DNA of 64,000 bases, taken from Filomicrobium insigne (lineage in GTDB: Bacteria; Pseudomonadota; Alphaproteobacteria; Rhizobiales; Hyphomicrobiaceae). The stretch's first letter is position 1. The number at the start of each line of letters is the position of its first letter. The notes under the pieces were generated by a model. The model saw only the letters and a list, made by a program, of their open reading frames with translations. It did not search any database and was not told the DNA's origin. A program made the position numbers and the translations under genes. Where the stretch lies: assembly GCF_900104305.1 (NCBI RefSeq), contig NZ_FNJC01000004.1, positions 248,001-312,000 on the forward strand, read 5' to 3'. Below are positions 35,110-51,931 of the stretch, piece after piece.

Positions 35110-35859
35110 ATGGCCGACGATCAAGGAGCAGCGCCCAGGAGCACTGTTGAGCGCCGTAATCTTCTCCGGCGTTTGGCGTCCGTTCGGCAAATCGAGAAGC
35201 TGCCGATGTTCTTTCTTGCGTCGCTGGCTGTGCTGACCTTTGTGTTCGTGCAGATTGCAGCCCTCGTCTTTAGTGGAAATTCGCGCAACTTTGACGAATG
35301 GTTGCTTCGCGCCATGCGCGCCCCTGGCGACAATGGTGGGCCAATTGGACCCGCTTGGCTTGAGGGGACCGTGCGTGACTTCACAGCGTTGGGAAGTACC
35401 GGCGTTGTCGTCCTCATCGTTGTTATCTCGGCGTTGTTTCTGCTCATAACGCGAAAGGGGCACTCCGCGCTTTATGTGGTTTTGGCAGTCGTGGGCGGGA
35501 CGCTGTTGAATAACCTCTTGAAGATCGGTTTTGGGCGACCGCGTCCTGATATCATCACGCGTGGCACAGAGGTTCATACGCTTAGTTTTCCTTCCGGGCA
35601 TTCGATGATGTCGGCGGTCGTTTATCTAACGTTGGGCATGTTGCTGGCGCGCTCCCAGCCCGACCCGAGGGTGAAGATTTTCATCTTTTCTGTCTGTGTC
35701 CTTCTGACATTGATGATTGGACTGAGCCGGATTTATCTTGGCGTTCACTGGCCAACGGATGTGTTGGCCGGCTGGACCCTCGGGGCGGGATGGGCGCTGT
35801 TGTGTTGGATGCTGATGCTGTGGCTGCAGGGCCAGGGTCAGGTCGAGAGTGACCGTTGA
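35110..35859 (+). CDS. PAP2-family lipid phosphatase
   Basis: 249-residue membrane phosphatase with about six TM segments. The three PAP2 motifs are complete: KIGFGRPRPD, PSGHSMMSA and SRIYLGVHWPTDVLAG. Likely substrates are phosphatidate, phosphatidylglycerol phosphate or undecaprenyl pyrophosphate at the outer face of the inner membrane. GGAGG lies before ATG 35110, though about 12 bases away. Its 3' end overlaps the convergent flavoprotein gene by 22 bases. Confidence 0.9.
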   Translation: MADDQGAAPRSTVERRNLLRRLASVRQIEKLPMFFLASLAVLTFVFVQIAALVFSGNSRNFDEWLLRAMRAPGDNGGPIGPAWLEGTVRDFTALGSTGVVVLIVVISALFLLITRKGHSALYVVLAVVGGTLLNNLLKIGFGRPRPDIITRGTEVHTLSFPSGHSMMSAVVYLTLGMLLARSQPDPRVKIFIFSVCVLLTLMIGLSRIYLGVHWPTDVLAGWTLGAGWALLCWMLMLWLQGQGQVESDR

Positions 35860-37142
35860 GTGGAATGTGCCGCCCTTGCCAAGTGACGCGATAAGCGTCG
35901 GGCCGTAAAGGCCGCACCAATTGAAAACCTCATCACAGGCCCAAAGGTGTTGGCTGAGATTGGGCCAATGAAATAGAGGCCTGGAATGGACGATTCGAAG
36001 TTGGCCGAAAGCCTGGGCGTTGGGCCTATCCGGTCTAGATTGTCGATGATGTCGGGCGCAATGAAGGGAAGTCTGGATACGTCTTGCCGATAACCTGTGG
36101 CTGCAATGACGTGGTCGACAGTGATGGCTTTTTCCCGACCACTTATGTCTGAAAGCTGGAGCCGTATCTTCCCGAGCGCTTCATGAGCGTGGCGCAGGTC
36201 GTGACCGAGTAGGCGGGGGACCTGCGCCATCCGTTCTTTCATGAACCAGCCGCCTGCCGGCCCGAGAAACTCCTTGACGGTGCGTAGCCGGACTTGGTCG
36301 GGAAGGTACCGAAAGGCCCACGGCATATCGGTGCATGCGCGGTTTTGCCAGCCGGGGCCTATTCCCGACATGGGGCGATATAATCTTTCAAGCAGAGGGC
36401 GATGGAGCGGCTCGTCCAAGCCAAACTCGATAGTAGATTTACGTGCGATGAGCAGGGGCTTGGCGCCCGCTTCTTGCAGCAGCACCGCGGAATCTATGGC
36501 TGATGATCCAGCGCCGATTACAGCGACGTGTTTATCCTTGAAGATGGAAAGATCGTGGTGTTCCGCACAATGCGTGACCAGTTCCTGTGGTAGTCCGCTC
36601 AGTTCGCCCGGTGTGTTGCGGAAATAATCGAGGCCGATGCCAATGACCACGTTGCGGGACGTGAATGATTGTCCGTTTGCTAGCTCAAGGATGAAGCCCT
36701 GATGGTGGCGCTTTACGCGGATGACGGTCGTTTCTTCGACGTTGGGGACGAGGGCTTTTTGGAATGCCAAGCCGTAAGCCGTGAATGTTTCTAGCTTAAC
36801 GGGGAGTCCAACGTCTTCGAAGGCTATGCCGTGGTCCTCGCAGTAACGACGTATCGTGAAGCTCTGATCGGGATCATAGAGCGTTGAGGAAAAACCCGTT
36901 GACTTGAGCTGCATGCCTTTCGGCATATTGTCGCGCCAGGATTTCATTGGTGTGCCGATGATGCGGAAATCCGTTCCCAGTCCGTGTAAGTGAGCAGCAA
37001 CAGACAGACCGAAGGGGCCGGCTCCGATGATCGTCACCGGCACCGGCTTCGGCGCGGGGCCATGTTTGCTCAAGGCTTTCCGCGTGACCGCGTTGCGGGT
37101 GGGGGGGGCGGGTGTTGTCGTCTCTATGTTTTGAGTGCTCAT
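35838..37142 (-). CDS. FAD/NAD(P)-binding oxidoreductase (monooxygenase-like)
   Basis: 434 residues. An N-terminal Pro/Thr-rich stretch precedes a dinucleotide fold, VTIIGAGPFGLSVAAHLHG (about 36-54, FAD). A second fold, VAVIGAGSSAIDSAVLL (about 200-216, NADPH), follows, then the ATGYRQDVSRLPF motif near 350 and a closing FIGPISANTFGP segment. This pattern fits the flavin N-hydroxylase/FMO-like group; the Baeyer-Villiger fingerprint FxGxxxHxxxW was not seen. Substrate unknown. GAAGG lies 9 bases before ATG 37142. The spacer to the acetyltransferase upstream is 70 AT-rich bases. It may belong with the biosynthetic genes to the right. Confidence 0.72.
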   Translation of the reverse strand: MSTQNIETTTPAPPTRNAVTRKALSKHGPAPKPVPVTIIGAGPFGLSVAAHLHGLGTDFRIIGTPMKSWRDNMPKGMQLKSTGFSSTLYDPDQSFTIRRYCEDHGIAFEDVGLPVKLETFTAYGLAFQKALVPNVEETTVIRVKRHHQGFILELANGQSFTSRNVVIGIGLDYFRNTPGELSGLPQELVTHCAEHHDLSIFKDKHVAVIGAGSSAIDSAVLLQEAGAKPLLIARKSTIEFGLDEPLHRPLLERLYRPMSGIGPGWQNRACTDMPWAFRYLPDQVRLRTVKEFLGPAGGWFMKERMAQVPRLLGHDLRHAHEALGKIRLQLSDISGREKAITVDHVIAATGYRQDVSRLPFIAPDIIDNLDRIGPTPRLSANFESSIPGLYFIGPISANTFGPVMRFSIGAAFTARRLSRHLARAAHSTQRSLST

Positions 37143-37212
37143 CGCAATATGCCTTCAATATAAAATGTTTTGTGCCCTAATAATTTCGTCAGGCAGATGA
37201 AATCGCTCGTGC

Positions 37213-37866
37213 TTATTTGGCGGATTTTATTTGTTTGATCATCGCTATATGAGGAATCCGATCCTCGATGTAGGGCGCGCCGACGGCAACGAATCCAAAT
37301 GAGGCGTAGAAATCTTTCAAATAGGCCTGTGAGGATATTTTTATTGGGATGTCACTGTTTTCGTTCTCAAAACGATCAAAATACTTTTCAACGAGCAGTC
37401 GTCCCAGGCCGCGCCCGCGCATCTTGTGGGTGACGACCACGCGACCAAAGCTTGCGTAGCCTGGCGCAAAGAGATCGGGTGGTAGAGCCCGAAGATAAGC
37501 AACCACCTTTTTATTCAGGAGCCCGAGCAGATGCAGGGACTGCGCGTCCCTGTCGTCAATATCCGCGTATGGAACGCCCTGTTCTACGATGAATATTTCT
37601 TGCCTGAGGCGCAGTACGGCATAGAGCTGCTGTGCTTGTAGGTCCTCAAATTGGGACCAGCTCCACGTGATCGCGTGGGGGCATATGTGCCACTTCTCGC
37701 GTGCATCGGCTTTCGGGTCAGAAGAACTCGTGCATGGCGATATGGCTTCGGCACCCTTGCACGTTGGTTCGGATGCGGGTGAGATCGGCATGCCGCTTTC
37801 TGGCGGTTTCGCCGGGAGGGCTGAGTATAACATTGATCTCTCGTTTAGCGTTTCGGGAAGGTGCAC
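37213..37866 (-). CDS. ElaA-like GNAT acetyltransferase
   Basis: 217 residues; the ElaA-type GNAT domain starts near residue 66 (ITWSWSQFEDLQAQQLYAVL) and includes LRQEIFIVEQGVPYADIDDRD, the acetyl-CoA loop VTHKMRGRGLGRLLVEKYF and YLKDFYASFGFVAVGAPYIED. The first 60 residues are Pro/Ser-rich and not part of the domain; translation could begin later, for example at ATG 37791, or the extension may be real. It ends 13 bases downstream of the adjoining oxygenase stop region and shares its strand, so the two are probably co-transcribed. Substrate unknown. Confidence 0.78.
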   Translation of the reverse strand: MHLPETLNERSMLYSALPAKPPESGMPISPASEPTCKGAEAISPCTSSSDPKADAREKWHICPHAITWSWSQFEDLQAQQLYAVLRLRQEIFIVEQGVPYADIDDRDAQSLHLLGLLNKKVVAYLRALPPDLFAPGYASFGRVVVTHKMRGRGLGRLLVEKYFDRFENENSDIPIKISSQAYLKDFYASFGFVAVGAPYIEDRIPHIAMIKQIKSAK

Positions 37867-37879
37867 GGTGCGAGATCGT

Positions 37880-38701
37880 CTAAGCAGCCGGCGTATTGCC
37901 GTTGCCGTAAAGTAGATCGGCAGTGTTGGCGTATTCAGTTTCGCGCGTCGTCTGGAAGGCCATGTTTATGACGCTGCGTCGCGCACCCTCTGCTGTGATT
38001 GGGACAACCCGATGCAGATTTAGGTCGGCGCGAAGCAGATAGGCGTCGCCGGCTTTATGATGGAGCCTTTCGACGAGGCTATTCTCCTCAGCCCATGCGA
38101 TGAGATCCGTGATGTTTTGGTCCGCCTGACGCTTTTTGCGGCGGCACAAATCTGACCAGTTTGGGATTATTTCCACTTCGCCGCCTTGGCCGGGATCGGG
38201 AGTTTCCGCGAAGATGACGAGCGCATATGGAGGATCATCCAAATGCCAGCCGTGTGTGTCGCCACTGCTTTGGAGGAAATTGGCGACCATGAATTCTTCG
38301 GGGTGGATACAGGAGAATATCGGACGGCCCGAAATTGCCTCGACGCACGCCCGCAGCGCGGTGTGGTGATACAGCCGGTAGAGAAAACGGGAATGTTCTT
38401 TGATCGCGCGGCCGCCAAGGACGGAGAGATTTCTCGGGGAGAGGTATCCCGGCATTTCAAAAGTTCGGCGGCTGGCTGTCGCTTCGAGACGCCGCAACTC
38501 GGCTTGCAGGAAGTGCAACGCTGCTGGGGTGAGGAAGTCCGGCAGTTTTACGTAGCCGCCTCGTAAAAACTGCTCGTGCATGTCTGCTAATGTGCTTGGC
38601 TCGAAATCCTTCGACATCGTCAGGTCAAATAGGGCTTCGGTCCAATCCAGAGTTCCTGATTGGTTTTGTTCCATCCCATGGCCTTCGAGAGCTAGGTGCA
38701 T
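37880..38701 (-). CDS. BesD/HalD-family Fe(II)/2-oxoglutarate oxygenase with HxD (predicted hydroxylase)
   Basis: 273 residues from ATG 38701, preceded by a good AGGGAGA ribosome site; an upstream ATG at 38806 is less likely. Iron ligands are His153 and Asp155 in DTHGWHLDDPPYA and distal His230 in ADLNLHRVVPI, with Arg241/242 for 2-oxoglutarate. The HxxHxD spacing matches the BesD halogenase motif, where the third position is Gly to leave room for chloride. Asp here predicts hydroxylation of a free amino acid or similar substrate. It is divergent from an operon with a second 2-oxoglutarate oxygenase. Family assignment is from motif memory only. Confidence 0.7.
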   Translation of the reverse strand: MHLALEGHGMEQNQSGTLDWTEALFDLTMSKDFEPSTLADMHEQFLRGGYVKLPDFLTPAALHFLQAELRRLEATASRRTFEMPGYLSPRNLSVLGGRAIKEHSRFLYRLYHHTALRACVEAISGRPIFSCIHPEEFMVANFLQSSGDTHGWHLDDPPYALVIFAETPDPGQGGEVEIIPNWSDLCRRKKRQADQNITDLIAWAEENSLVERLHHKAGDAYLLRADLNLHRVVPITAEGARRSVINMAFQTTRETEYANTADLLYGNGNTPAA

Positions 38702-39040
38702 CGCTTGTCTCCCTTTAATTGTTCTTGGGTGCCGCTTTGTCCTTTGGACGTGATTGGTCGTCCTGCAAGTCGCGTTGCCATGCAGGTGGACTTTACGTTC
38801 TTTCAAGTGGCTTGGTGAGTTCTGTGCAGATGAGTTCTCTAAAGTATAAAAACCATTTGTTTATTCTCTGAATAACGTAGAAAACTGTTTTAAAAAAAAC
38901 AACTTCGAAATGCGATCGAACTATAGACATGTGCTTTGAATTGAGTCAATGATCGGCAAATCTAAAAAACAATATTTTGCTTTTTTAAATTTTCGCAGCT
39001 GGTGTTGGTTTGTTGTTTTCTATTGAGGGGTTTCATTTTT
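38702..39040. promoter_or_regulatory. AT-rich divergent promoter region
   Basis: 339 bases between the two divergent oxygenase genes, clearly AT-richer than the rest of the window from about 38820 on, with A-tracts (38891-38899), a TATAAAAA element near 38844 and an imperfect AT palindrome around 38965-38988. No regulator gene adjoins it. Low GC in such a region is typical of horizontally acquired clusters and of sites bound by xenogeneic silencers such as MucR; that binding is inference. No exact promoter is assigned. Confidence 0.5.
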
Positions 39041-40036
39041 ATGCGAGAGCACATTATTCCAGTCGTCGATGTGGGTTTGTTGCGCGATCGAGATCCGTTG
39101 GGGTCCCGTGAAGCCGCGCGTCAGATCGGGCAGGCCTGTAAAGACATCGGTTTTTTCTACGTGCGGAATCACGGCATCGCCGACGGTGTGATATCCGATA
39201 CCTTCCGTCAGGCTGAGGCCTTCTTCTCGTTGCCGCTTGCTGAGAAGATGAAGTTCTCCATGGAGCGCCATAGCCGTTGCTTTCGAGGATATGCGCCCGT
39301 CCTCTCGGAATTGGCGGATGGCAAACGCAATTCCTACGAGCTCATGGAATTCAGTGTCGAATTTGATGACGAACACCCCGACGTGGTCGCCGGAAAGCCG
39401 ATGCATGGCCCCAATCTTTGGCCATCCTTACCCGGCTATCGCGCGGCTATTATGCGATATGTGGCAAGTATGAATGAGTTGGGCTTTGACCTGATGCGCG
39501 GCATTGCCATGAGCTTATCGCTACCGGAAGACTTCTTTTACGACGCATTCAACGAGCGCTCGTTCTGGCAGTTTCGGACGACGCATTATCCTGAACCTAA
39601 GTCCGTGCGGCAGATGGCCGAGTATGCGCCGCAGAGCGGACCTGTCTCGGAAATCGAGATTGGGGATTACAGCTGTGGTGCTCACACTGATTATGGGTGC
39701 TTGACGATCTTGCTTGCGAACAATCCTGGCCTTCAGGTGCGTAACCGTGATGGGGAGTGGTTCGACGCGCCGGCAATTCCTGGGGCCTATATCTGCAATA
39801 TCGGGGATATGCTGCAATACTGGACAGGCAATTTGTTTGTGGCGACGTTGCATCGTGTTTTGACGAACCAATCGCGCATATCGTTGCCCTTCTTTTTTCA
39901 GCCCGACTACGAAACGGTCGTGCAACCCTTCGGTGGCGTAACGGATATCCGACTTGAGGATTTTCCGCCGCTCAAATACGGACCTTATGCCTTCGAAAAA
40001 TACAAAGGCATTTATCCCAACTGTTGCGTTGCTTAA
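39041..40036 (+). CDS. Isopenicillin-N-synthase-like Fe(II)/2-oxoglutarate oxygenase
   Basis: 331 residues from ATG 39041. The N-terminal DIOX_N part contains IPVVDVGLLRDRDP and CKDIGFFYVRNHGI. The jelly-roll core has His215 and Asp217 (CGAHTDYGCLTILL), His271 (ATLHRVLT) and the 2-oxoglutarate anchor Arg279-x-Ser281 (NQSRISL). This is the common IPNS/gibberellin-oxidase-like bacterial family; substrates range from amino acids to purines and cannot be read here. It is the first gene of a five-gene + operon, with 17 bases to the next start. An in-frame upstream start at 39002 lacks support. Confidence 0.88.
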   Translation: MREHIIPVVDVGLLRDRDPLGSREAARQIGQACKDIGFFYVRNHGIADGVISDTFRQAEAFFSLPLAEKMKFSMERHSRCFRGYAPVLSELADGKRNSYELMEFSVEFDDEHPDVVAGKPMHGPNLWPSLPGYRAAIMRYVASMNELGFDLMRGIAMSLSLPEDFFYDAFNERSFWQFRTTHYPEPKSVRQMAEYAPQSGPVSEIEIGDYSCGAHTDYGCLTILLANNPGLQVRNRDGEWFDAPAIPGAYICNIGDMLQYWTGNLFVATLHRVLTNQSRISLPFFFQPDYETVVQPFGGVTDIRLEDFPPLKYGPYAFEKYKGIYPNCCVA

Positions 40037-40053
40037 CGGTCGTCGGTGATCAA

Positions 40054-41295
40054 ATGGACAAAGCGGCATTGAAGGGCGCGCTGCTGCCTCACGACCGGCG
40101 CGCGATGCGTTTCATCTCCAAATATCGCACGAAGATCTATGCTGGCCTCGGCGGGTTGGCGTTATCGCTGCTCGTTGTGGGGGCTTTAAATCTGCCCTTC
40201 ATGGTGGCGCTTCTGCTTGTGTTCGCGCCGGTTGGGTTGGCGTTCGTGCTGCCGAGGTATGTGAGGCTGATCTGTGCGGTTGAGGATGACTTCAATCAGA
40301 GAACAGCGCTGGTCACGCCAGCGCGGCTGGTGCGATTCCTGTTCCATGTCCCGATCGTCTTTAGCGTGCTCGCGATTGCTCATGCAGCTCGCGGTGACGC
40401 ATGGGCAGGATGGAGTGTTGCATTCGCGTTGACGGCTGGAGCTGCCGGGTTGCACGCGGTTGCTGTCACGTTTGCTTATCGTGGTTATGGCGATCGGATC
40501 AGCAACAGCATCCTGGCAATCTCAGCAATCATTTGGCTTGTCGTCACGGCCGAAGGGCATTGGAGCTTATGGGTTCTGACGGTGTTTCTTGGAGTGCTCT
40601 TTGGCCTGGATACGGCAAGAGGGCTTCTTTCTGACCTGAGGTCCCGCCTTTTTCCGAGACGAGGGATCGGGGTGTTTTTCGGTTCCTTCAACCCGGTCCA
40701 CAAGATGCATTTGGCGCTTTTGAGCAACCTTCTGGCGGACCGTCAGCTGAACAAGATTTACGTGCATGCCACGACGATTCCGAAGCTGCATCGTGTGGCT
40801 CTGGCGCGTGGAGAAATTGCAGTTTGTGAACGTGCTGGCGTTAGGGAATACCGTGCTTCGCATTTTGCGGATACGGGCAAGAACTACTTCCCGACCGGCA
40901 ACTGGTTTTATGACTATGAATTGCGGTTGGAGCTTTTGAAGGCTGCAATAAGCGACGCGGGTCTGAATGGACGTGTCGAAGTTCTCAACCTGCCGGATCT
41001 TTATGAAAAATCGGGTTTTGCAGGTGTGCTTCGCCGTATCAAGTCGCTGCACAAGGGCCAGCCTGTACATGGTTTGCATGGCAGTGATCCCGGCGGCATG
41101 TGGGTTCGCAATATCTTTGATAGCAGCGGCTGGATCTACCCTTGTCCGATTGTCCGTACGGGCGTCGTGTCGGCTACGGCAATTCGAGCCGGAGCAATCG
41201 GCTTGACGTCAGTCACGGTCGAGAGATTTCTGGCGGCCAAGCGGCGCGGGGAAGACTTTGTTTTCCCGTCCGGCTACGTCTTCCGAAACCGGTGA
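40054..41295 (+). CDS. Membrane protein fused to a NadD-like nucleotidyltransferase
   Basis: 413 residues from ATG 40054. The first 200 residues hold about six hydrophobic helices (for example IYAGLGGLALSLLVVGALNL, MVALLLVFAPVGLAFVLP). The last 205 are a cytosolic HIGH-type nucleotidyltransferase: GVFFGSFNPVHKMHLALL carries the GSFxPxHxxH nucleotide motif, and VSATAIRAGA near the end corresponds to the ISSTxIR motif of NadD. Soluble NadD has no such membrane part, so this is probably a dedicated enzyme activating a cluster intermediate with AMP or CMP at the membrane. Inference; substrate unknown. The next gene starts 10 bases later. Confidence 0.75.
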   Translation: MDKAALKGALLPHDRRAMRFISKYRTKIYAGLGGLALSLLVVGALNLPFMVALLLVFAPVGLAFVLPRYVRLICAVEDDFNQRTALVTPARLVRFLFHVPIVFSVLAIAHAARGDAWAGWSVAFALTAGAAGLHAVAVTFAYRGYGDRISNSILAISAIIWLVVTAEGHWSLWVLTVFLGVLFGLDTARGLLSDLRSRLFPRRGIGVFFGSFNPVHKMHLALLSNLLADRQLNKIYVHATTIPKLHRVALARGEIAVCERAGVREYRASHFADTGKNYFPTGNWFYDYELRLELLKAAISDAGLNGRVEVLNLPDLYEKSGFAGVLRRIKSLHKGQPVHGLHGSDPGGMWVRNIFDSSGWIYPCPIVRTGVVSATAIRAGAIGLTSVTVERFLAAKRRGEDFVFPSGYVFRNR

Positions 41296-41305
41296 GGGGG
41301 CAGCG

Positions 41306-42265
41306 ATGACCCGAGGCGCGACCGGTGCTTTTCACCCTTTGTCTATTACGCGAGAGAAGGGCAATCCGATGCGCGCTTGCGAGTGGGGGCTGCTCGTTGG
41401 GCTATCCATGCTGTGGGGAAGCGCGTTCTTCTTTACGGCCATTGCCATTCATGAATTGCCGACATTCCTCATCGTTTTTTTGCGCGTTACCCTGGCGGCG
41501 GCGTTGCTGTGGCTGGCGCTGAGCATGATGGGATTGCGCCTGCCGCGAGAGGCTGAGGCATGGAGAAGTTTTTTCGTATTGGGGCTGCTCACGAACGTTC
41601 TACCGTTTTGCCTGGTCGCGTGGGGGCAGCTTCGGGTTGCGTCCTCTGTTGCCTCGATCCTGAATGCGGCCGCGCCTTTCGCCACGCTCTTACTGGGTCA
41701 CTTCTGGACCGGAGAGGAGCGGTTGTCGGCTCACAAGGTGTTGGGACTTGTGGTGGGGACGACGGGAATTGTCGTCCTGCTGAGCGGAGGGTGGCATGTC
41801 GGCGTTTCACTCGCAGATGCGTTGGCGTATCTGGCGTGCCTGGGTGCGGCCATCTGTTATGCGCTGGCTGCCGTTGTAGGTCGGTTCAGGCGGTTTGGAG
41901 AGCCTCCGATCGTTCGCGCCGCGGGCCAGCTTGTTGCGGCATCCGTTCTCCTGCTTCCGGCTGTTGTCATCTCTGACAACCCTTTCGGGTTGAGGCTGCC
42001 GAGTTGGTCAGTGGTAGGCTCGGTTCTCGCGTTGGCGGTGTTATCGACCGCGTTGGCTTATATTGTCTATTTTAAACTTCTGAGAACCGCTGGCGCGACT
42101 AATCTTCTTCTTGTGACATTTCTTGTTCCGATAAGCGCTATGTTTTTTGGGATTGTACTTCTGGGAGATTCTATTGGTGCTCGTGAAACTTGTGGATTGA
42201 TTTTGGTAGGTGTTGGACTTTTGGCTATTGATGGTCGTGTGTTTTGTTTTCTTGTCGGCAAGTGA
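41306..42265 (+). CDS. EamA-family (DMT) exporter
   Basis: 319 residues from ATG 41306 (GAGGGG upstream); ATG 41369 with GAAGGG upstream would give 298 residues and a start closer to the first helix. About ten TM segments form two EamA repeats, the first containing LSMLWGSAFFFTAIAIHELP and LRVASSVASILNAAAPFATLL, the second LAYLACLGAAICYALAAVVG and STALAYIVYFKLLR. Such carriers export amino acids and metabolites, so it is the natural exporter of the surrounding operon's product. The last 250 bases are visibly AT-richer than the first part. Confidence 0.88.
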   Translation: MTRGATGAFHPLSITREKGNPMRACEWGLLVGLSMLWGSAFFFTAIAIHELPTFLIVFLRVTLAAALLWLALSMMGLRLPREAEAWRSFFVLGLLTNVLPFCLVAWGQLRVASSVASILNAAAPFATLLLGHFWTGEERLSAHKVLGLVVGTTGIVVLLSGGWHVGVSLADALAYLACLGAAICYALAAVVGRFRRFGEPPIVRAAGQLVAASVLLLPAVVISDNPFGLRLPSWSVVGSVLALAVLSTALAYIVYFKLLRTAGATNLLLVTFLVPISAMFFGIVLLGDSIGARETCGLILVGVGLLAIDGRVFCFLVGK

Positions 42266-42312
42266 TCTGGTTTCGCTTTTTTTGTTAATTTTCTTTTTTT
42301 ATGGGGATTTTT

Positions 42313-44097
42313 ATGGCTGTGTTTGTCGGAATTTCAGCGCACTATCACGACTCCGCGTGTTGTTTGATCAAGGACGGTCATCTCGTGGCGGCGGCGGAGG
42401 AGGAGCGCTTCACCCGCATCAAGCATGATAATGGCATTCCATCCAATGCTTTCCGCTATTGTCTGCGGGAGGCTGGCGTCACGATCGCGGACGTGACAAG
42501 CCTTGCGTACTATGAAAATCCCGCCAAGAAGGTTGCGCGTCAGCTATGGGCCGGGCTGCCCGGTATTCTCAACAACCCCAAACAGCGTTTTCGGATAGAT
42601 CCAGGACGTGCTCAAGACGAAATACGAGATTGCTTGGGGTACGACAGGGAGATCGAATTTGTCGATCATCACCTGTCTCATGCTGCTAGCGCTTTTTATT
42701 TTTCTGGGTTTGATGAGGCTGACATTTTTACGGTGGATGGCGTCGGTGAATGGGCGACGACCACCTATGGCCGCGGGGTTGATCGGAAAATAGATCTCTT
42801 TGAGGAAGTTTCGTTTCCTCACTCCCTTGGGCTATTTTATAGCACGATCACGGCCTATCTCGGTTTTGAAGTCAATGATGCCGAATACAAGGTGATGGGG
42901 CTTGCTCCTTATGGCTCGCCTCGATACCTGGATAAGGTTCTGCAACTTATTGATTGTTGGGACGGCGGACAGTACCGCCTGAACATGGAGTACTTCGATT
43001 TTCTCGGCGGGGATCGGATGTATTCGGATCGCTTGTGTGAGCATTTTGGTGAGCCGCCGCGTGTGCCGGAGTCAGAGCTCGCGCAATTCCATAAGGACAT
43101 GGCCGCCAGCGTGCAGCGTGCCCTTGAGGTTATCCTGCTGGATAAGGTGGCGTATCTCCACGCGCGTCATCCCACTGAAAACCTCTGTATGGCTGGCGGT
43201 GTCGCTCTGAACTGTGTGGCAAACGGCAAGGTCCTGCGCGAGGGGCCCTTCAAGCGCCTCTTTGTGCAACCTGCGGCAAGCGATGCCGGAGGCGCGCTCG
43301 GTGCGGCGGCAGTGGCATGTGTTCGTCACGGCGAGGATCGTTTATCCCGCGAGAGACAAAAGCACGTTTACCTGGGGCCGAAATTCAGCGCCCGGGATGT
43401 CGCCCGTGTCGTCAATCCTAGTCCGCTCAAGCAGTGTGCGTTGGACTATTCGGAAGATCCTGAGGGGCTGATCCAAGCGACTGCTGAGCGTTTGGCGGAC
43501 GGCAAGGTGATCGGGTGGTTCCAAGGGCGGATGGAGTTTGGGCCCCGCGCGTTGGGCGCGCGCTCCATCATCGCCGACCCGCGCAGGCCGGAGATGCGCG
43601 ACCGGATTAACGCGCTTGTCAAGATGCGCGAAGCGTTCCGGCCCTTTGCGCCCGCCGTTCTCGAGTCAAAGATGGCGGAGCATTTCGAGATCGACCATTC
43701 TTCGCCTTTCATGCTCGAGACGTGCCGGGTGGTTTCGAGCCTGGCGTTGCCGGCGATCACGCATGTGGATCAATCGGCGCGCGTTCAAACGGTCAACGAG
43801 CACACCAATAAGCGGTTTCACGATCTGCTGATTGCGTTCGATAAGCTGACGGGCTGTCCGATCCTGCTCAATACGTCCTTCAATCTGCGTGGGGATGCCA
43901 TCGTGCTCGAACCTATCCACGCGATCTGGACCTTTGCGATTTCGAACATCGACGCGCTTGTGATGGAGGACTTCATTATTGATCGCACCGAGCGTCCGGA
44001 AGCCTGGTCTGAGATCATCGAGATGATGGGCGCGCGTCTCAAAAAGAAGCGGCGCGCTGCCGATGCTGGTCGCGCCAACGTCTATTCATTTCTTTAA
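42313..44097 (+). CDS. NodU/CmcH/TobZ-family carbamoyltransferase
   Basis: 594 residues from ATG 42313 (GGGGA at 42303-42307). The N-terminal Kae1-like domain begins VFVGISAHYHDSACCLIKDG and has the metal/active-site segments FVDHHLSHAASAFYFSGF and TVDGVGEWATTTYGRG. The C-terminal YrdC-like region has MEFGPRALGARSIIADPR and LNTSFNLRGDAIV. These enzymes make carbamoyl-adenylate from carbamoyl phosphate and ATP, then carbamoylate a hydroxyl on an antibiotic or Nod factor. Two oxygenases nearby could supply that hydroxyl. Spacing is 47 bases after the exporter and 29 before the hydrolase gene. Confidence 0.93.
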   Translation: MAVFVGISAHYHDSACCLIKDGHLVAAAEEERFTRIKHDNGIPSNAFRYCLREAGVTIADVTSLAYYENPAKKVARQLWAGLPGILNNPKQRFRIDPGRAQDEIRDCLGYDREIEFVDHHLSHAASAFYFSGFDEADIFTVDGVGEWATTTYGRGVDRKIDLFEEVSFPHSLGLFYSTITAYLGFEVNDAEYKVMGLAPYGSPRYLDKVLQLIDCWDGGQYRLNMEYFDFLGGDRMYSDRLCEHFGEPPRVPESELAQFHKDMAASVQRALEVILLDKVAYLHARHPTENLCMAGGVALNCVANGKVLREGPFKRLFVQPAASDAGGALGAAAVACVRHGEDRLSRERQKHVYLGPKFSARDVARVVNPSPLKQCALDYSEDPEGLIQATAERLADGKVIGWFQGRMEFGPRALGARSIIADPRRPEMRDRINALVKMREAFRPFAPAVLESKMAEHFEIDHSSPFMLETCRVVSSLALPAITHVDQSARVQTVNEHTNKRFHDLLIAFDKLTGCPILLNTSFNLRGDAIVLEPIHAIWTFAISNIDALVMEDFIIDRTERPEAWSEIIEMMGARLKKKRRAADAGRANVYSFL

Positions 44098-44126
44098 ATC
44101 AATTTTCAATTCAGGGAGCTGGTGCC

Positions 44127-46205
44127 GTGGGTGAGCAAATCACGCGCAAGGAGTTGGCAACACGTCTGGCTGAGGCGATCAAGGACCGTGCGACGTTGCC
44201 TCTGCTGCAATTGTTGTGCGATGCGCAGGTGGAAGGCGTCGGTGAGGTGGCGGATATATGGACCGGTCCCTTCTCTTCGCTTCGGGACGATATTCTGGGG
44301 TTTGCTGGCGGCGAGGGAGAGGCTGGCGCCCGGGCGGTTGGTATCTGGGAAGAGGAGCCAACGACGGGGGAGTTTGTCCGGTCGCGGCGTCATATCGATC
44401 TTTGGCGGTTTTGCGCGAACGTCGACCGGATCCGGAAAAAAGGAAACCGCAAACGCGTTGCGTTTTTGGGTGAATCGGTTGCGCGCGGCTTTTTCTTCAG
44501 CCCGCAATATGGCCCCGCGCAGGTTCTTGAAAAGCAGCTCGCCGCCGTCGGGCCGAGTGTCGAGGTCGTCGATCTCGCCCAGAGTAATTGCGGGCCATGG
44601 TGGCTCGTAGAGATGACGCGAGCTGCCGCTGCGTTGCAACCCGACGCTATCGTTGTTTTTGCTGGGAATAACTGGCGTGCCGGTTCGTTATCTAGAGCAT
44701 CCACGGACGCCTTTGTGCAGGATGGCGGATTGCTGGCTGAAGATGGGGGGCTTTCTGCCCTGATGGCGCGGCAACAGCGTCGCGCCGCAGAAATTGCTGA
44801 GCACACAGTCAGAGAGTTGGCGAAGGCTGCGCATGACATGGGTGTACCGCTGATCCTCGTTCTGCCAGAGATCAACGTTGCGGATTGGCTGAGTTGCCCG
44901 ATCGGAACCCTTGATGTTCCGCTAATGTCTGAGCTGGATACGGTGGCCTGGGTGGACGTGTTCTCTGAGGCCCGAGAGGCGGCCGATGCTGGTGATTTCC
45001 GTGAGGCGGAAGATCGCGTGCAAGAGGCCATCAATCTTGATGGCGGGACTTGCTCCGCCAGTCTCGAGCTGCTTGCTCACGTTCAATTAAAGCAGGGGAA
45101 GACGCGTGAAGCCTCGGCAGCTCTGCGGCGTAGTCGTGACATTGTCGATGAGACGCGGGTGTTGCCGGGCATTTTCTCTGTCGTCGCGGAAGTGATCCGG
45201 AAGGTTGGGCGGGAGGTCGGTGCTCTCGTGGTCGATCTGCCTCATGTCTACCATCAGCACTTTGGGAACAGTGTTCCCGGGCGCGGGCAGTTCCTCGACT
45301 ATTGTCATCTGAATGCTGAGGGTATTCGCGTTGCGATGGCGGGAACGGCGCAAGCGGTGGTTCAGGCTCTCTTCCATAGCACCGCGGATTTGCAGCGACT
45401 TGTTGAGGCCGGACCTTCTCCGTCACCGGAGCAGGAAGGTTGGGCGCATCTCTTGGCGGGCATTCACAATGCGCACTGGGGACAGGGTACCGAAATCTGT
45501 AGCTTTCATTTCAAGCGTGCGGCGTCGTGTTATCCGCCGATCGGAGAGATCAGCATTCCGCTCGTCTATGATGCGTTCCGACATGGCGTGCCACCGTTGC
45601 TGCTTTCGTCCTTCGGTGAGCTCGTCAAAAATCAAATCGCTTCGACCTACCTCATGGGATACGGCCTGATCGGCCGAGGGCTGATCCGGGAGCATGACCT
45701 CTTGAAATCGATTGTCGCTGCGTTCCCCTCGCTCGGTAACATCTCGTCGGACCCGGACTTTGTGCTCGGAGAGATTGACGAGCTTGACCTTCTCGATGCG
45801 CATTGGTTGCCGTTAATGGATGGTAACCGTTGGTATCGGCGTGCCTTCAAGGCGGCTTACGAGTTGGAGAGCGCCTTTCCGTTCGTTAGTGCTCGGTCGC
45901 AGAAGCTGGAGCTCTCAATTGTCTCTCGTGTCCCAGGCGCGCGTCAGTCGGGCGATATCATTGTCAAACTGAATGGTGCTCAGGTCGGCCGGGTTTCGGT
46001 TCAGGATCAGTGGTGTGATCAGCGCATCGTGTTGGACAGTTCACGGGTCAAGCAGGGGCTCAATTCGCTGAGGTTAATCTGGCCGAATGTGCCGCGTGCT
46101 GATCTGCGTTCAAGCCTTAAGGTTCGCTTTGAAACGGGGCAGCAACTCGACACGCGCACCCATTTCGGGCATCTCCATGAGTTGAGGATTTCTGCTGCCA
46201 CCTGA
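44127..46205 (+). CDS. SGNH/GDSL hydrolase-like protein with TPR-like helices
   Basis: 692 residues from GTG 44127, with AGGGAG 8 bases upstream. The SGNH blocks are present: nucleophile Ser117 in VAFLGESVARGFF, an Asn in VVFAGNNWRAG for the oxyanion hole, and Asp/His in LDYCHLNAEG. A TPR-like helical insertion lies near 285-345 (DAGDFREAEDRVQEAINLDG, QGKTREASAALRRS), before the Asp/His block. The last 120 residues are strand-rich and may form a carbohydrate-binding-like domain (DIIVKLNGAQVGRVSVQD). Probably an esterase or acyltransferase acting on the cluster product or a glycan; function unassigned. Confidence 0.68.
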   Translation: MGEQITRKELATRLAEAIKDRATLPLLQLLCDAQVEGVGEVADIWTGPFSSLRDDILGFAGGEGEAGARAVGIWEEEPTTGEFVRSRRHIDLWRFCANVDRIRKKGNRKRVAFLGESVARGFFFSPQYGPAQVLEKQLAAVGPSVEVVDLAQSNCGPWWLVEMTRAAAALQPDAIVVFAGNNWRAGSLSRASTDAFVQDGGLLAEDGGLSALMARQQRRAAEIAEHTVRELAKAAHDMGVPLILVLPEINVADWLSCPIGTLDVPLMSELDTVAWVDVFSEAREAADAGDFREAEDRVQEAINLDGGTCSASLELLAHVQLKQGKTREASAALRRSRDIVDETRVLPGIFSVVAEVIRKVGREVGALVVDLPHVYHQHFGNSVPGRGQFLDYCHLNAEGIRVAMAGTAQAVVQALFHSTADLQRLVEAGPSPSPEQEGWAHLLAGIHNAHWGQGTEICSFHFKRAASCYPPIGEISIPLVYDAFRHGVPPLLLSSFGELVKNQIASTYLMGYGLIGRGLIREHDLLKSIVAAFPSLGNISSDPDFVLGEIDELDLLDAHWLPLMDGNRWYRRAFKAAYELESAFPFVSARSQKLELSIVSRVPGARQSGDIIVKLNGAQVGRVSVQDQWCDQRIVLDSSRVKQGLNSLRLIWPNVPRADLRSSLKVRFETGQQLDTRTHFGHLHELRISAAT

Positions 46206-46211
46206 TTTTGT

Positions 46212-46246: not shown

Positions 46247-46271
46247 GCGCAAGATTTACGTTCATTTTTTA

Positions 46272-46402: not shown

Positions 46403-47395
46403 ATGATCGCGATGAATTCAATGCGGTGCTCCGTGGCCGGACGTTTCAGTCAGGAACTTGTCGTCGCTGGGCTAGCGGTTGCGTTGGCGTTGGTGTTCGC
46501 GGCTGCAATTCCTGGGTTCGCGACGTGGGGGAACGCAATGGCGCTCCTGCGCAGCATCGCGATTATCGGGGTGTTGGCGCTTGGTATGTCTGTCGTCATT
46601 ATCGGCGGGGGGATCGACCTGTCGCAGATTGCTGTCGCGCTCGTTTCCGCAGGCGTTGCCGCCATCATGATCAACGGCGGATTTCCTGTTTCGATTGCGC
46701 TCCTGGTGGGGCTTTTCGCAGCAATCGGCATGGGGCTCGCTAACGGATGGTTCGTTGCCTATCTCGGCATCCCATCATTGTTCGCAACGCTTGCGAGCGC
46801 GTTGCTCTTCATGGGCGCGGCCCGGTCGACGCTCATGCCGTCGACCATCATAAATTTGCCGCCCGGCGACGGCGCGTTTCTCGTGCTTGGGACAAATTGG
46901 GCCGGTGTTCCTGTTCCTGCGCTCATATTTGCTGTCTCAGCTGTCGTGATGCATCTGTTTCTGGCGCACTTAGTCGTTGGGCGTTTCGTCTACGCGGTGG
47001 GGGACAATCCAGCTACCGCACGTCTCTCTGGGTTGCCGGTTCGTCGGCTGCGCATGATGACATTCGTGATGGCTGCTGTGATTGGCTATCTGGGTGGTCT
47101 CGTCATGGTCGCATCCACGGCGATGGTCGATCTGGGAACGGCCAAGTCGACATTCATTTTCGACGTCGTCCTAGTTGCTGTTGCCGGGGGTGTGAGCTTG
47201 TCGGGTGCACGCGGTGGCGTCGCCAGTGTGCTTGCGGGGACGGCTTTTGTCGGCGTGCTGCTCAACGGCATGTCCATCCTCGACGTCAATTCTCAGGTCC
47301 AAACAGTCATCAAAGGAAGCTTGCTGTTGGCCGCCATCGTGCTGGACAGCCAGTTGAGGCCGCATGACGAGGAGGCGGAGCGTCACAGCATCTGA
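46403..47395 (+). CDS. CUT2-type sugar ABC transporter permease (RbsC-like)
   Basis: 330 residues, about ten TM helices, of the RbsC/BPD_transp_2 family: IIGGGIDLSQIAVALVSAGV (a variant of the GGIDLSVG motif), FVAYLGIPSLFATLASALLF, VYAVGDNPATARLSGLPV and AVAGGVSLSGARGG are all family landmarks. It forms the membrane channel of the importer encoded here, together with the second permease at 48472. In-frame ATGs at 46412 and 46421 are alternative starts; none has a strong ribosome site. Confidence 0.9.
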   Translation: MIAMNSMRCSVAGRFSQELVVAGLAVALALVFAAAIPGFATWGNAMALLRSIAIIGVLALGMSVVIIGGGIDLSQIAVALVSAGVAAIMINGGFPVSIALLVGLFAAIGMGLANGWFVAYLGIPSLFATLASALLFMGAARSTLMPSTIINLPPGDGAFLVLGTNWAGVPVPALIFAVSAVVMHLFLAHLVVGRFVYAVGDNPATARLSGLPVRRLRMMTFVMAAVIGYLGGLVMVASTAMVDLGTAKSTFIFDVVLVAVAGGVSLSGARGGVASVLAGTAFVGVLLNGMSILDVNSQVQTVIKGSLLLAAIVLDSQLRPHDEEAERHSI

Positions 47396-47443: not shown

Positions 47444-48475
47444 GTGATAATGGTCGATTTTATATCCGGGAAGCGCTGGGCGATTGGGCTGGTTTCCGCG
47501 TTGGTGGTGACGTGGGGCTTCATGGACGGAGCGTCTCACGCCCAGACCGATCCACGGTCTCAGCTTCGAATTGATTTTGATAAGGCGGTGAAGGGTAAGA
47601 CAGTCGCCTGGGTGCCGATCACGATGGGGACACCTATCGATCAGATCTGGACGGCCGTCATGCAGTCGCACTTCGACAAGTACGGCATCAAATTCATCGT
47701 CCGCGATCCGAACTTTGACAGCAATTCGCAGCTGCAAGCTGTGACGTCGCTCATCAATGAAAAGCCCGACGTTCTGATCGTCCAGAATATCAACGTTTCA
47801 TTGCTGGCGAGAGAGTTGAAGCGGGCAATGGAGAACGGCATCTACGTCATCCAGGTCAACATGATGTCGAACCAACCCTCCGATGCCTATGTGGGGGTCG
47901 ACAATGTTGACTCGGGGCGGCTGATCGCGAAGGACATCGTAGCTCAATGCGGGGGTGGCAAGAGTTCCGGCAAGGTCGCGATCGTGCAAGGCGAAGCGAC
48001 GTCAGCGGGGAGCCTTGATCAGCTCAAGGGAGCGATGGAGGTTTTTGCTGCGGATAAGTCGATCAAAGTTGTTTCGACGCAGGCGGCCAATTGGGATGCC
48101 AACAAGGCGAACGAGATAACGGCGACGGTGCTGAGACAGCACCCCGATCTCTGCGCGACTTACGGACATTGGGGGATCATGCAGCAAGGTGCGGCCCAGG
48201 CTGTGAAGGCGGCGGGTCTGCAGGGCAAAGTGAAGGTTTATGCGTCGAGCGATGGTCCACGTTCGGACTGTGAGATGGTCGAGCAGGGCCTCTTTTATAA
48301 GGTGCTGTCCTATCGGGCCGATATCCAGGGGATGCAGATTGCCGATGCGGTGCTGACGCTGTTGCAAAGCGGTGAAAAGCCGGGAGCAAAGCGTTTGACG
48401 CTTCTCTCCAACAACTTTTGGGTCACGGGCCCGGCTGAGCGTCATTACTGCTACGACCTTTCGTTGACGCAATGA
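47444..48475 (+). CDS. Periplasmic sugar-binding protein of the ABC importer (RbsB-like)
   Basis: 343 residues from GTG 47444 (GGGAGG 5 bases upstream; ATG 47450 also possible). The signal peptide ends near SHAQ (about residue 34). The periplasmic-binding type 1 fold is recognised from TVAWVPITMGTPIDQIWTAV, LINEKPDVLIVQNINVSLLA, AYVGVDNVDSGRLIAKDIV and ATYGHWGIMQQGAAQAVKAAG. Ligand unknown: the pattern fits pentoses, polyols or sugar derivatives. The next gene overlaps by four bases. It differs from canonical operon order in lying between two permease genes. Confidence 0.88.
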   Translation: MIMVDFISGKRWAIGLVSALVVTWGFMDGASHAQTDPRSQLRIDFDKAVKGKTVAWVPITMGTPIDQIWTAVMQSHFDKYGIKFIVRDPNFDSNSQLQAVTSLINEKPDVLIVQNINVSLLARELKRAMENGIYVIQVNMMSNQPSDAYVGVDNVDSGRLIAKDIVAQCGGGKSSGKVAIVQGEATSAGSLDQLKGAMEVFAADKSIKVVSTQAANWDANKANEITATVLRQHPDLCATYGHWGIMQQGAAQAVKAAGLQGKVKVYASSDGPRSDCEMVEQGLFYKVLSYRADIQGMQIADAVLTLLQSGEKPGAKRLTLLSNNFWVTGPAERHYCYDLSLTQ

Positions 48476-49605
48476 CGCAGGCTGAAGATCGCAGTGCCTC
48501 TTTCCTCCGAGGTGCTCTCGCTCGGTCGCCATCCCTCAGGGTGGCTGGCCGAGCTTTTTCGGAGAGGGAGAGAGGTTTGCTTTCGCGCTATCCCGTATTC
48601 AGGCGCCGCTTTGGCGACAGCCTCGATGCGGCCGTGCCCCTGCTTGTGATGTGTGGTCTGTTTGCGGCTTTCGCGCTGCTTGTGCCGAACTACCTGAGCG
48701 GTTCCAACTTGCAGCAATTGATGCGCGATTATGCAGAGCCTTGCCTGGTCGCGTTGGCTCTGGGGATCGTTGTCTTTGCCGGCGGGATCGATTTGTCGGT
48801 GGGCGCCATATTTGCCCTGGCTAAATTTACGGCTCTCTACCTTTTCCGGATTGAGATGTGGCCTTTGCCAGTTGCGGTTTTGGGTGTGCTGTCTGTCGGT
48901 GCCGTTATAGGCGCGATCAACGGTGTCCTGATTGCTTATCTTAAGACCAGAGCTTTCCTGACGACACTCGCGATGTTGTTGATTTTGCGCGCAGGGCTGG
49001 ATTTCGTCACCAACGCCTACACGATCGAGCTCGCGAATGCCTGGCGTGACACAGAGGGTTGGTACTGGCTTGGGGCCGGATATTTTTTGGGTGTTCCAAG
49101 CAACATGGTGATCCTGCTCGTTGTGGCTCTGGCACTCCATCTGTTCCTTACGCGCCTTCGTCCGGGGTTGCACATTATGGCCACGGGAGCTGATCGCAAG
49201 GCTGCGCGTCATGCTGGAATAAATACGCGGCGCGTTACGCTTCTGGCTTATGTGCTTAGTGGATTGATCGCTGCTCTGGCTGGGTTGTTCTATGCGGCCC
49301 GGCAAAGTAGCGCGGGTTCAGACACAGGTCTTGGCTGGGGAGTGACCGCCTTAACCGCGGTGGTGCTGGGTGGCGTAAGCTTGTCCGGTGGTGGCGGTTC
49401 GGTTGGACGCGTCATGATCGGTTCTGCGATCTTGTTTCTGCTGATGAGTGGTCTGTTGCGTATGAACATGCCCGGCGGGGCTTCTTCAGCGTTGATCGGT
49501 GCGACGCTGTTGGGGGCTGTCGGCATCCACATTCAGTGGTCGCGGCGTCGTGCGCGTTCGCGATCTGTCAGGTCGCCTGTATCAGACCAACGGGGCGCTC
49601 CATGA
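48472..49605 (+). CDS. Second CUT2-type ABC transporter permease (RbsC-like)
   Basis: 377 residues with an unusual soluble N-terminal extension of about 50 residues, then the RbsC fold: FAGGIDLSVGAIFALAKFTA, IAYLKTRAFLTTLAMLLILR, IMATGADRKAARHAGINTRR and VLGGVSLSGGGGSVGRV. It probably forms a heterodimeric channel with the permease at 46403. It overlaps the binding protein upstream and the ATPase downstream, each by four bases (ATGA), so the three are translationally coupled. Confidence 0.9.
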   Translation: MTQAEDRSASFLRGALARSPSLRVAGRAFSERERGLLSRYPVFRRRFGDSLDAAVPLLVMCGLFAAFALLVPNYLSGSNLQQLMRDYAEPCLVALALGIVVFAGGIDLSVGAIFALAKFTALYLFRIEMWPLPVAVLGVLSVGAVIGAINGVLIAYLKTRAFLTTLAMLLILRAGLDFVTNAYTIELANAWRDTEGWYWLGAGYFLGVPSNMVILLVVALALHLFLTRLRPGLHIMATGADRKAARHAGINTRRVTLLAYVLSGLIAALAGLFYAARQSSAGSDTGLGWGVTALTAVVLGGVSLSGGGGSVGRVMIGSAILFLLMSGLLRMNMPGGASSALIGATLLGAVGIHIQWSRRRARSRSVRSPVSDQRGAP

Positions 49606-51106: not shown

Positions 51107-51931
51107 TTAGCGTTTCGGTGAAGGCAGCTCTGCTAGAAACATTCGGTGTTCGATGTCCGTTGCTGCGGTCATTAAGGCTTTAGCGCATTGCTTGAGTTGG
51201 GCGTCGTCGAGCCACCCGGTAATGAATGTTGTGCCGATACCTGCGACGGGGTGGCCCGACGGATCGCAAATGGCGGCGCCCATGCCGCTTGTCGATCGGT
51301 CGAGGACAATATTGCCGTAGATCCCGTAGCCCGCGTCCATCGAGTCGGCGAGCGATTTGCGGAAACCCTTTTCATCGAAGCCATCGATGCGGCGGTACCG
51401 CGGCATGCTGAGCTTGATGATGTCGCGGACCTCGTCAGGGTTCATTCGGGCAAACATGCCCATACAGGCGGGTGTCATGCCGAATGGGCCGCGCATGCCC
51501 GCCCAACCTCGTCCAACCTGTATCTGTGATGGGCCTTCGTAGCGGCCAACGCAGACGAAGTCCAAGCCGGAGCGGACGCTAAGATAGACGACCTGCGAGA
51601 GCTTTTCCGCTAAGGCGCTGAGGGTGGTCGCTGCGGTGCGTTCCAGTGGATGGCGGCTAATTGCCGAAAAGCCAAGCGCAGCGAGATCGGCGCCGAGGTT
51701 GAAGCGGCGGGTTTCGGGATCACGGGATACCCAGCCTACGGTCATCAGCATTTCCAATACGCGATAAACGGTGGGGCGGGGTAGAGACGTCCGAGCAACG
51801 AGATCACTCAGCTCGCATCCCTCTTGCGGACCCTGTGCGATCGCCTCAAGCAATGTGACGGCTCTGTTCAGGCTGCCGGCGGGTAGATCGGAAGCATGGA
51901 CGGTTCGTGACGAGCTGTGACCGTTGGACAT
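51107..51931 (-). CDS. IclR-family transcriptional regulator
   Basis: 274 residues: winged-helix domain (residues 20-80, SLNRAVTLLEAIAQ, LVARTSLPRPTVYRVLEML) and an IclR effector domain (90-265, including YRRIDGFDEKGFRKSLADSM, MGAAICDPSGHPVAGIGTTF). It is convergent with the sugar ABC operon and likely controls it, the effector probably being the imported compound or a catabolite. A palindromic operator-like pair lies 28 bases upstream of its start, suggesting autoregulation. Confidence 0.9.
   Translation of the reverse strand: MSNGHSSSRTVHASDLPAGSLNRAVTLLEAIAQGPQEGCELSDLVARTSLPRPTVYRVLEMLMTVGWVSRDPETRRFNLGADLAALGFSAISRHPLERTAATTLSALAEKLSQVVYLSVRSGLDFVCVGRYEGPSQIQVGRGWAGMRGPFGMTPACMGMFARMNPDEVRDIIKLSMPRYRRIDGFDEKGFRKSLADSMDAGYGIYGNIVLDRSTSGMGAAICDPSGHPVAGIGTTFITGWLDDAQLKQCAKALMTAATDIEHRMFLAELPSPKR

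Follow-up and report, generated by a model that had tools for sequence, protein, structure and literature searches.

We analyzed a 64,000-nucleotide stretch of Filomicrobium insigne DNA (contig NZ_FNJC01000004.1, positions 248,001 to 312,000; hereafter, the window), taken from a genome of 3.85 Mb (G000), and identified in it an accessory cluster of biosynthetic and transport genes at about positions 35838-51931. Five enzymes of this cluster, i.e., a HalD/BesD-family Fe/2-oxoglutarate (2OG) oxygenase (HalD), a GNAT acetyltransferase, a NadD-like nucleotidyltransferase, a monooxygenase-like flavin enzyme (FMO), and an IPNS-like Fe/2OG oxygenase, recur together with a CUT2-like ABC importer in another class (three genomes). 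A NodU/TobZ-type carbamoyltransferase and a large SGNH-domain protein constitute a separate module, which is inserted in the window cluster and is found elsewhere inside unrelated clusters. In the best explanation, to which we give an even chance, the cluster makes, exports, and re-imports a hydroxylated, N-modified amino-acid-like metabolite, and the carbamoyltransferase-SGNH cassette is an insertion at this place.

A first-pass annotation had placed an undescribed biosynthetic cluster without nonribosomal peptide synthetase (NRPS) or polyketide synthase (PKS) at 37213-46205. This idea was right in kind and is partly supported overall, but its borders and membership were wrong. The seven genes it named are all present, at the positions and with the domains it gave them (open reading frame (ORF) check and Pfam/NCBIfam scans); however, the edges of the unit lie farther out, as FMO (35838-37142) and the importer with its neighboring IclR gene (46403-51931) also belong to it. 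The features of the cluster are as follows.

35838..37142, - strand: FAD/NAD(P)H-dependent monooxygenase-like gene (FMO); PF13738, 68 bits; recurring core
37213..37866, - strand: GNAT acetyltransferase; PF13673, PF00583, PF13508; core
~37880..38674, - strand: HalD/BesD-family Fe/2OG oxygenase; PF23169, 4e-54; core
38675..39040, no strand: divergent AT-rich intergenic region between the HalD and IPNS-like genes; 366 bp, GC 0.396
~39041..40036, + strand: IPNS/EFE-like Fe/2OG oxygenase; DIOX_N/2OG-FeII_Oxy; core
~40054..41295, + strand: NadD-like nucleotidyltransferase with hydrophobic N-terminal half; assigned by motifs, without Pfam match; core
~41306..42265, + strand: EamA-family exporter; PF00892
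~42313..44097, + strand: NodU/TobZ-type carbamoyltransferase; Carbam_trans_N/C, PF02543, PF16861; cassette
44127..46205, + strand: 692-aa SGNH-domain protein; Lipase_GDSL_2, 27.5 bits, below the cut-off of 32.9; cassette
46403..47395, + strand: ABC importer permease 1 (CUT2-like); NCBIfam relatives GguB, AraH, and RbsC, each below cut-off
47444..48475, + strand: ABC importer binding protein; sugar-binding-protein relatives in PDB; best conserved gene of the block
48472..49605, + strand: ABC importer permease 2; by homology to the L058 permease-ATPase fusion
49536..51098, + strand: ABC importer ATPase; by homology, 47% identity to the L058 fusion protein
51107..51931, - strand: IclR-type regulator, convergent with the importer; PF09339, PF01614

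In searches with the DNA and with the NadD-like, HalD, FMO, and large SGNH proteins, the block proved rare among relatives, and we therefore regard it as accessory. When the DNA at 31-50.5 kb was compared with six other genomes of the genus, the match covered an M1 peptidase gene (~31.3-33.5 kb) only, apart from brief similarities to the ATPase gene and to distant carbamoyltransferase genes. Among 59 relatives, the window's own genome was the only one with the NadD-like protein; in the order, it was found in 2 of 397, the second with a match of 39 aa. FMO, at E 1e-60, was found in 1 of 297 genomes (itself). HalD relatives occurred in 4 of 297 genomes of the order at E 1e-10, i.e., itself and three at 31-33%, whose loci (2.8-3.6 kb) contained no other cluster gene at E 1e-8. 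The large SGNH profile matched 2 of 385 genomes in the class, the second marginally over 65 positions. No match to the NadD-like protein was found in an initial scan of genome contigs or in plasmids, and viral contigs gave no pattern match.

Only a whole-genome search across the phylum showed recurrence of the NadD-like protein, with a match in five of 398 genomes. One of these is the genome of the window; two others match over a short stretch, and the remaining two, G1088 of another class (47%) and G487 of the same class (41%), over a long one. A 20-kb locus of G1088 (L058) has homologs of HalD, GNAT, NadD, FMO, IPNS, both permeases, the binding protein, and the ATPase, with an EamA gene after FMO. 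A NadD-like profile search in the family of G1088 matched 24 of 90 genomes, three of them over a long stretch (G1088, G1154, and G1166); in 20 of the other 21, the match was short and lay in the nucleotidyltransferase core, and in one (G1181), the N-terminal half matched marginally. The loci L070 (G1166) and L071 (G1154) repeat the set of five enzymes and importer, and both stretches end within the permease 2/ATPase part. Identities of the window proteins to those of L058/L070/L071 were 60/60/60% for HalD, 62/57/57% for IPNS, 47/47/45% for NadD, 48/52/54% for FMO, 48/49/49% for GNAT, and 76/76/75% for the binding protein, with permease 1 at ~52% in all three.

The arrangement of these genes is also shared in part. 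HalD and IPNS are divergent neighbors in four of four loci. In L070 and L071, one strand reads HalD-GNAT-NadD-FMO-EamA-PNPOx-FA_hydroxylase-permease 1-binding protein-permease 2 with gaps of -8 to 64 bp, and this single tight strand ties the enzymes, exporter, and importer together; IPNS runs divergently and is followed by an M20 peptidase gene, which the relatives have instead of the cassette. L058 has the same gene order, but its importer is separated from EamA by a 575-bp gap and a DUF1275 gene. Beside M20 in L058 stands a LuxR-type gene whose product has an autoinducer-binding domain, with 49-50% homologs in L070 and L071; M20 and LuxR had no match in the window. Recurrence as a block in distant genomes, which the first-pass annotation had named as the test of its five-gene + strand operon, was thus borne out for five enzymes and the importer, and not for the operon as drawn: IPNS and the NadD-like gene instead recur with HalD, GNAT, FMO, and the importer.

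Occurrence within genera is sporadic, as the long NadD-like protein was not found in other members of the same genera (G1136; G1129, G1149, G1162, and G1172), which suggests transfer or loss. In G487, the NadD-like relative lies beside two GNAT-like genes (L059, 9193-11723); the other core enzymes were not found in the three 20-kb stretches read from this genome, and its importer is at a separate place. Plasmid neighborhoods of two FMO relatives (L051 and L052) contain genes for ligase and glycosyltransferase but neither HalD nor GNAT. Close to the cluster of G1088 (L058, 15821-19854), we also observed DUF3325, PepSY_TM, and TonB-receptor genes, as around metallophore uptake loci.

Within the window, FMO is on the same strand as GNAT, 70 bp away. 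The gaps of 17, 10, 47, and 29 bases given earlier for the + strand were reproduced exactly with sensible starts; some gap values in this work rest on guessed starts, and ORF picking was crude in high-GC loci. The AT-rich divergent region between HalD and IPNS was confirmed as well and contains three promoter-like sites (0.7 expected) and a 12-nt inverted repeat (38958-38992). Across 35.7-47.5 kb as a whole, promoter-like sites were not in excess (6 versus 5.3 expected), and a terminator scan was likewise not above chance. EamA, the carbamoyltransferase-SGNH pair, and the importer follow one another on one strand (gaps of 47 bp before the carbamoyltransferase and 29 bp before SGNH), and a 197-bp gap with a hairpin (46212-46246) follows the SGNH gene. 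The earlier description of the cluster as free of NRPS and PKS was upheld, with no such domain in the 30 window proteins scanned against Pfam (longest ORFs included, not every ORF). The window had no Rfam match, and no tRNA by ARAGORN.

The HalD-family enzyme has the motifs THGWHLDD and NLHRV, i.e., HxD...H iron ligands in an alignment with solved halogenases and a lysine hydroxylase. HLD is also present in the three other core loci, and the HxD ligands and the glutamate of an HPEE motif are conserved in all four. This glutamate aligns with the residue that we take to contact the side-chain amine of the BesD substrate, and with its conservation in four loci a basic amino acid would be a fair guess for the HalD-family substrate. 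Because of its HxD ligands, the enzyme is predicted to be an amino-acid hydroxylase; a halogenase was ruled out by HxD where halogenases have HxG. It is the gene that the first pass had labeled a BesD-type oxygenase. PMC10187165 describes halogenases as having lost the protein carboxylate ligand that hydroxylases retain, and PMC13244439 lists D142G among the changes used for converting the hydroxylase into a halogenase. A HalD relative with the HLDD motif (42% identical) was seen on a Burkholderia glumae plasmid (L006, 9179-17262), with DUF3050, SDR, F390-synthetase-like, MFS, and ATP-grasp genes as neighbors.

For the IPNS-like enzyme, the nearest solved relatives are 9ovh (ethylene/succinate-forming enzyme) and 6jyv (probable iron/ascorbate oxidoreductase), as deposited. 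Membership in this family says little by itself, since matches are common (331 plasmid records). The NadD-like protein has the motifs GSFNPVHKMH and SATAIR and several hydrophobic stretches within about the first 190 residues; the IPNS-like and nucleotidyltransferase motifs are conserved in four loci. A housekeeping NadD was ruled out, as the protein scored 22.1 bits against NCBIfam TIGR00482 (cut-off 112.45) and the long form is rare. Its single-sequence AlphaFold model was poor (pLDDT 43) and was not used. FMO scored 37.5 bits against PF13434 (Lys/Orn oxygenase; cut-off 21.3), but over profile positions 5-204 of 339, and its ATGY motif, presumably typical of N-hydroxylating and related monooxygenases, is present in four loci.

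The carbamoyltransferase has both Carbam_trans domains over nearly its full length, and its solved relatives are novobiocin carbamoyltransferase, GdmN, and TobZ. Neither this gene nor the SGNH gene had a match in L058 or L070-L073 (E 1e-4). A pattern scan with the large SGNH profile, covering one genome for each of 84,980 species, yielded 16 loci, to which a Streptomyces plasmid locus (L004) was added. In 11 of the 17, the large SGNH gene directly follows a carbamoyltransferase (gaps of ~12-74 bp), and in two the carbamoyltransferase is one gene away, which makes 13 of 16 decidable loci (in L035, the contig begins at the SGNH gene). The 13 belong to five phyla: Pseudomonadota, Bacteroidota, Bacillota, Actinomycetota, and Acidobacteriota. 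HalD, IPNS, NadD, GNAT, and FMO had no match at E 1e-3 in any of the 17, and L040 had a weak EamA match (22%, E 6e-6). The two genes thus make a pair of their own, and are not part of the recurring block.

Carbamoyltransferases of the large-SGNH loci formed one clade with support of 100/99 (22 rows, versus eight others that were hand-picked and are not a family sample); this value was obtained after L009_CT2 (branch length 10) was dropped and was 84/99 with it. In the SGNH tree, several rows have long branches, and we used only the grouping of the window with Burkholderiaceae; L033 was left out of one SGNH alignment, and the re-read L033 stretch was used in the tree. The closest cassettes are in four Burkholderiaceae (carbamoyltransferase 67-68% and SGNH 49-50% identical; L026, 382-14155, L027, L028, and L029), where the pair is part of a conserved cluster with two heme-oxygenase-like genes (one scoring too low for Pfam) and genes for ATP-grasp-like proteins, an SDR, an amidohydrolase, and a PLP decarboxylase. 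A ferredoxin gene is present in the two of these loci whose stored stretch extends far enough, and no NRPS/PKS was found in the part seen. In Kordia and Brevibacillus, NRPS/PKS genes are among the cassette neighbors scanned.

Several loci argue against an obligate pairing. In the Streptomyces loci L033, L038, and L039, the stored flanks of the SGNH gene contain no carbamoyltransferase, and the upstream neighbor is an asparagine-synthase gene; L027 and L040 have a second SGNH copy; the SGNH protein may thus be independent of the carbamoyltransferase. These three loci and L004, in which the carbamoyltransferase is present, belong to related clusters with asparagine synthase, the SGNH protein, and a luciferase-like monooxygenase.

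The first pass had named the SGNH gene a hydrolase. An SGNH domain is indeed present, but the whole protein has 692 residues and several domains: in its model (pLDDT 79, pTM 0.81), the SGNH domain is interrupted by a helical insertion and is followed by a helical part and a beta-sandwich, the latter with weak CBM35-like matches (E ~1e-3). A fold comparison that mainly covered residues 71-421 assigned the domain to SGNH/GDSL hydrolases (Z 16.9, rmsd 3.0, 185 aligned), and S117, N181, D391, and H394 (serine, GNN, and DxxH positions) do not vary across 16 rows. The short SGNH proteins that accompany other carbamoyltransferases are distant relatives of the large one (hhalign probability 79%, E 1.6e-5).

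These data raise the alternative that two neighbors are being read as one, the core forming a pathway by itself and the carbamoyltransferase-SGNH pair having been inserted without relation to it, to act on a target of its own, e.g., a surface glycan. The absence of the pair from L058 and L070-L073 and its recurrence without the five enzymes in 17 of 17 loci are in line with this idea, as are other NodU-type carbamoyltransferases in glycan loci (L009 and L010). However, the pair is embedded on the same strand between EamA and the importer, with short gaps, and the large-SGNH clade is found in NRPS/PKS or other enzyme-rich clusters, not in glycan loci, among the loci annotated. We consider an unrelated insertion possible, if on the doubtful side.

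The importer is of the CUT2 sugar type, as seen from its RbsB-like binding protein and permease 1 (NCBIfam and PDB relatives); permease 2 and the ATPase were assigned to it by homology to L058 and L084. Among 44 chosen genomes, the binding protein was found in the four carriers (75-100%) and, at another place, in G487 (54%), and the remaining 39 gave no match at E 1e-20. In G1088, too, the importer has an IclR gene beside it (L073, next to L058; 53% identical), and partial IclR matches lie near L070 and L071. In G487, the 54% identical importer stands without the enzymes; its permease 2 is fused to a strictosidine-synthase/SMP-30-like domain, and a second lactonase-like gene adjoins. The window EamA protein is 23/22/22% identical to the EamA genes of L058/L070/L071; at such low identity, the latter are stand-ins and not orthologs. 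Export of the product, as previously proposed, is therefore half of the picture: the exporter gene is present, but the binding protein of an importer is the best conserved gene.

The cluster could serve uptake and breakdown, the importer taking up a sugar-, lactone- or nucleoside-like compound that the oxygenases, FMO, GNAT, and the M20 enzyme of relatives degrade or detoxify under IclR control, with EamA expelling a by-product. The sugar-type importer as the best conserved part, the adjoining IclR genes, and the lactonase-like surroundings in G487 favor such a role. On the other hand, two Fe/2OG hydroxylases, an exporter, and a membrane nucleotidyltransferase would be unusual in a catabolic operon, as would the LuxR-type gene of relatives with its autoinducer-binding domain, and no central catabolic enzyme was found among the genes scanned. 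We judge this possibility unlikely.

In the pathway that we prefer, the HalD-family enzyme would hydroxylate a free amino acid with a cationic side chain, and the IPNS-like oxygenase would perform a second oxidation of the hydroxylated amino acid. FMO would oxidize a nitrogen, GNAT would acylate and thereby protect an amine, and the membrane-bound nucleotidyltransferase would activate the product or cap it with a nucleotide. EamA would export the product, and the ABC importer would return it or a breakdown form. In this strain, the carbamoyltransferase may add a carbamate to the new hydroxyl, and the SGNH enzyme may then trim or transfer an acyl or carbamoyl group. We infer the order of steps, the substrate, and the product of this pathway.

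Several points weigh against a self-made, re-imported metabolite. The importer belongs to sugar-type transporters; the enzyme-free importer of G487 near lactonase-like genes fits uptake of a food molecule, and so does IclR. The EamA genes of the window and the relatives are not orthologous, and the IPNS-like and EamA families are common, the former with matches in the 331 plasmid records mentioned above. The operon of L058 is less tight, with its 575 bp from EamA to the DUF1275 gene, and, because NadD has switched strand in the window, the order of the genes is conserved only in part. The hairpin-bearing 197-bp gap may separate the importer from the carbamoyltransferase-SGNH pair. Finally, the enzyme activities, substrate, and product are read from sequence.

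A more specific and speculative version, for which we see only a slim chance, would place the molecule in a new class of small molecules of methanol-using bacteria, acting as a signal or as a public good that binds metal. It would be an amino acid, hydroxylated and N-oxidized, self-made, exported, and re-imported, which would be activated or capped by the nucleotidyltransferase and carbamoylated here by a plug-in cassette that also serves unrelated pathways in five phyla. The term "methanol-using" refers to homologs of PQQ methanol dehydrogenase. The window itself encodes at 59499-63197 a PQQ methanol dehydrogenase-type protein, a cytochrome c, and a binding protein of the MoxJ type that scores above the TIGR03870 cut-off; counterparts of the dehydrogenase are 66-68% identical in the three other carriers. 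The dehydrogenase is also present in non-carriers of both families, and thus has no special association with the cluster.

Elsewhere in the window, phage-capsid, GTA TIM-barrel/tail, and GH108 genes at 838-12812 resemble a gene transfer agent locus. A stretch of ~95 bp at 56187-56287 has several copies, 81-86% identical, in each of four genomes of the genus, and its RNA fold is no better than that of shuffled sequence (z -0.95).

Five enzymes and an importer, conserved across classes and including a membrane-anchored NadD-like enzyme family, define a transferable cluster that is undescribed in the open-access papers searched. Keyword searches of an open-access library, most subscription papers being outside it, returned neither the block of HalD, GNAT, NadD, FMO, IPNS, and importer nor the large-SGNH pair. 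The earlier statement that no described pathway has this gene set therefore stands for the library searched, and a description in a subscription journal is still possible. The strong conservation of the binding protein gives a direct way to the product, since the ligand can be captured with the purified protein. In addition, a carbamoyltransferase clade accompanied by a large SGNH enzyme, in clusters with NRPS or PKS and in NRPS-free ones across five phyla, points to a two-enzyme step, for which no assigned reaction was found in the same literature. Clusters that lack NRPS and PKS may escape detection that depends on core synthase domains.

It is very improbable that the cluster is a variant of a known pathway, i.e., that for ethynylserine (bes), 4-formylaminooxyvinylglycine (gvg) or an NRPS-independent siderophore: a HalD-family enzyme is common to bes, FMO and GNAT could make a hydroxamate, and the large and small SGNH families are distantly related, but no aminotransferase, formyltransferase, heme-oxygenase-like, ATP-grasp or IucA/IucC domain was found among the cluster proteins scanned (permease 2, the ATPase, and the rest of the genome being outside the scan). 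The bes pathway contains an HxG halogenase, an ATP-grasp ligase, and the heme-oxygenase-like BesC; the cluster has HxD and no bes partner genes among the proteins scanned.

According to PMC4010436 and PMC8064604, the gvg/PNP-1 clusters combine a NodU/TobZ-type carbamoyltransferase with an SGNH hydrolase and, like the window, are NRPS-free and have an exporter. However, the SGNH protein there is short (pnp1B, 972 nt) compared with the 692 residues in the window, the window carbamoyltransferase belongs to another clade than the L005 and L008 group, and an aminotransferase (gvgH), a formyltransferase (gvgI), and a gvgC-like gene were not among the window cluster genes scanned. Crocagin biosynthesis (PMC10070186) has the 2OG oxygenase CgnC, the hydrolase CgnD with a Ser, Asp, His triad, and the carbamoyltransferase CgnI. 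It shares with the window the combination of 2OG oxygenase, carbamoyltransferase, and hydrolase, and Foldseek matched the SGNH model to the CgnD structure (8a2n; E 7.9e-4); yet crocagin is a RiPP (ribosomally synthesized peptide), and CgnD is a single domain of ~300 residues in the structure, in contrast to the multidomain window protein. A NodU-like carbamoyltransferase can carbamoylate lysine in a peptide (PMC13174530), and pseudovibriamide biosynthesis has an SGNH-like protein without a NodU-type partner in the portion of PMC11796379 that was covered. The gene set of the window cluster is in none of these systems.

Two core enzymes were set against characterized families. The window NadD-like protein shares the GxFNPxHxxH and SATAIR motifs with nicotinate-nucleotide adenylyltransferase (NadD), from which it differs in its extra hydrophobic N-terminal half, its rarity and linkage to the cluster, and its score below the TIGR00482 cut-off. 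The HalD-family enzyme matches PF23169, aligns to solved members with scores of 55-88 bits, and has the pattern THGWH-x-D-D as in the solved lysine hydroxylase (PDB 7jsd and 9oet): HLDD in the window corresponds to HWDD in the lysine hydroxylase and to HWGD in the halogenases BesD, HalB, and HalD.

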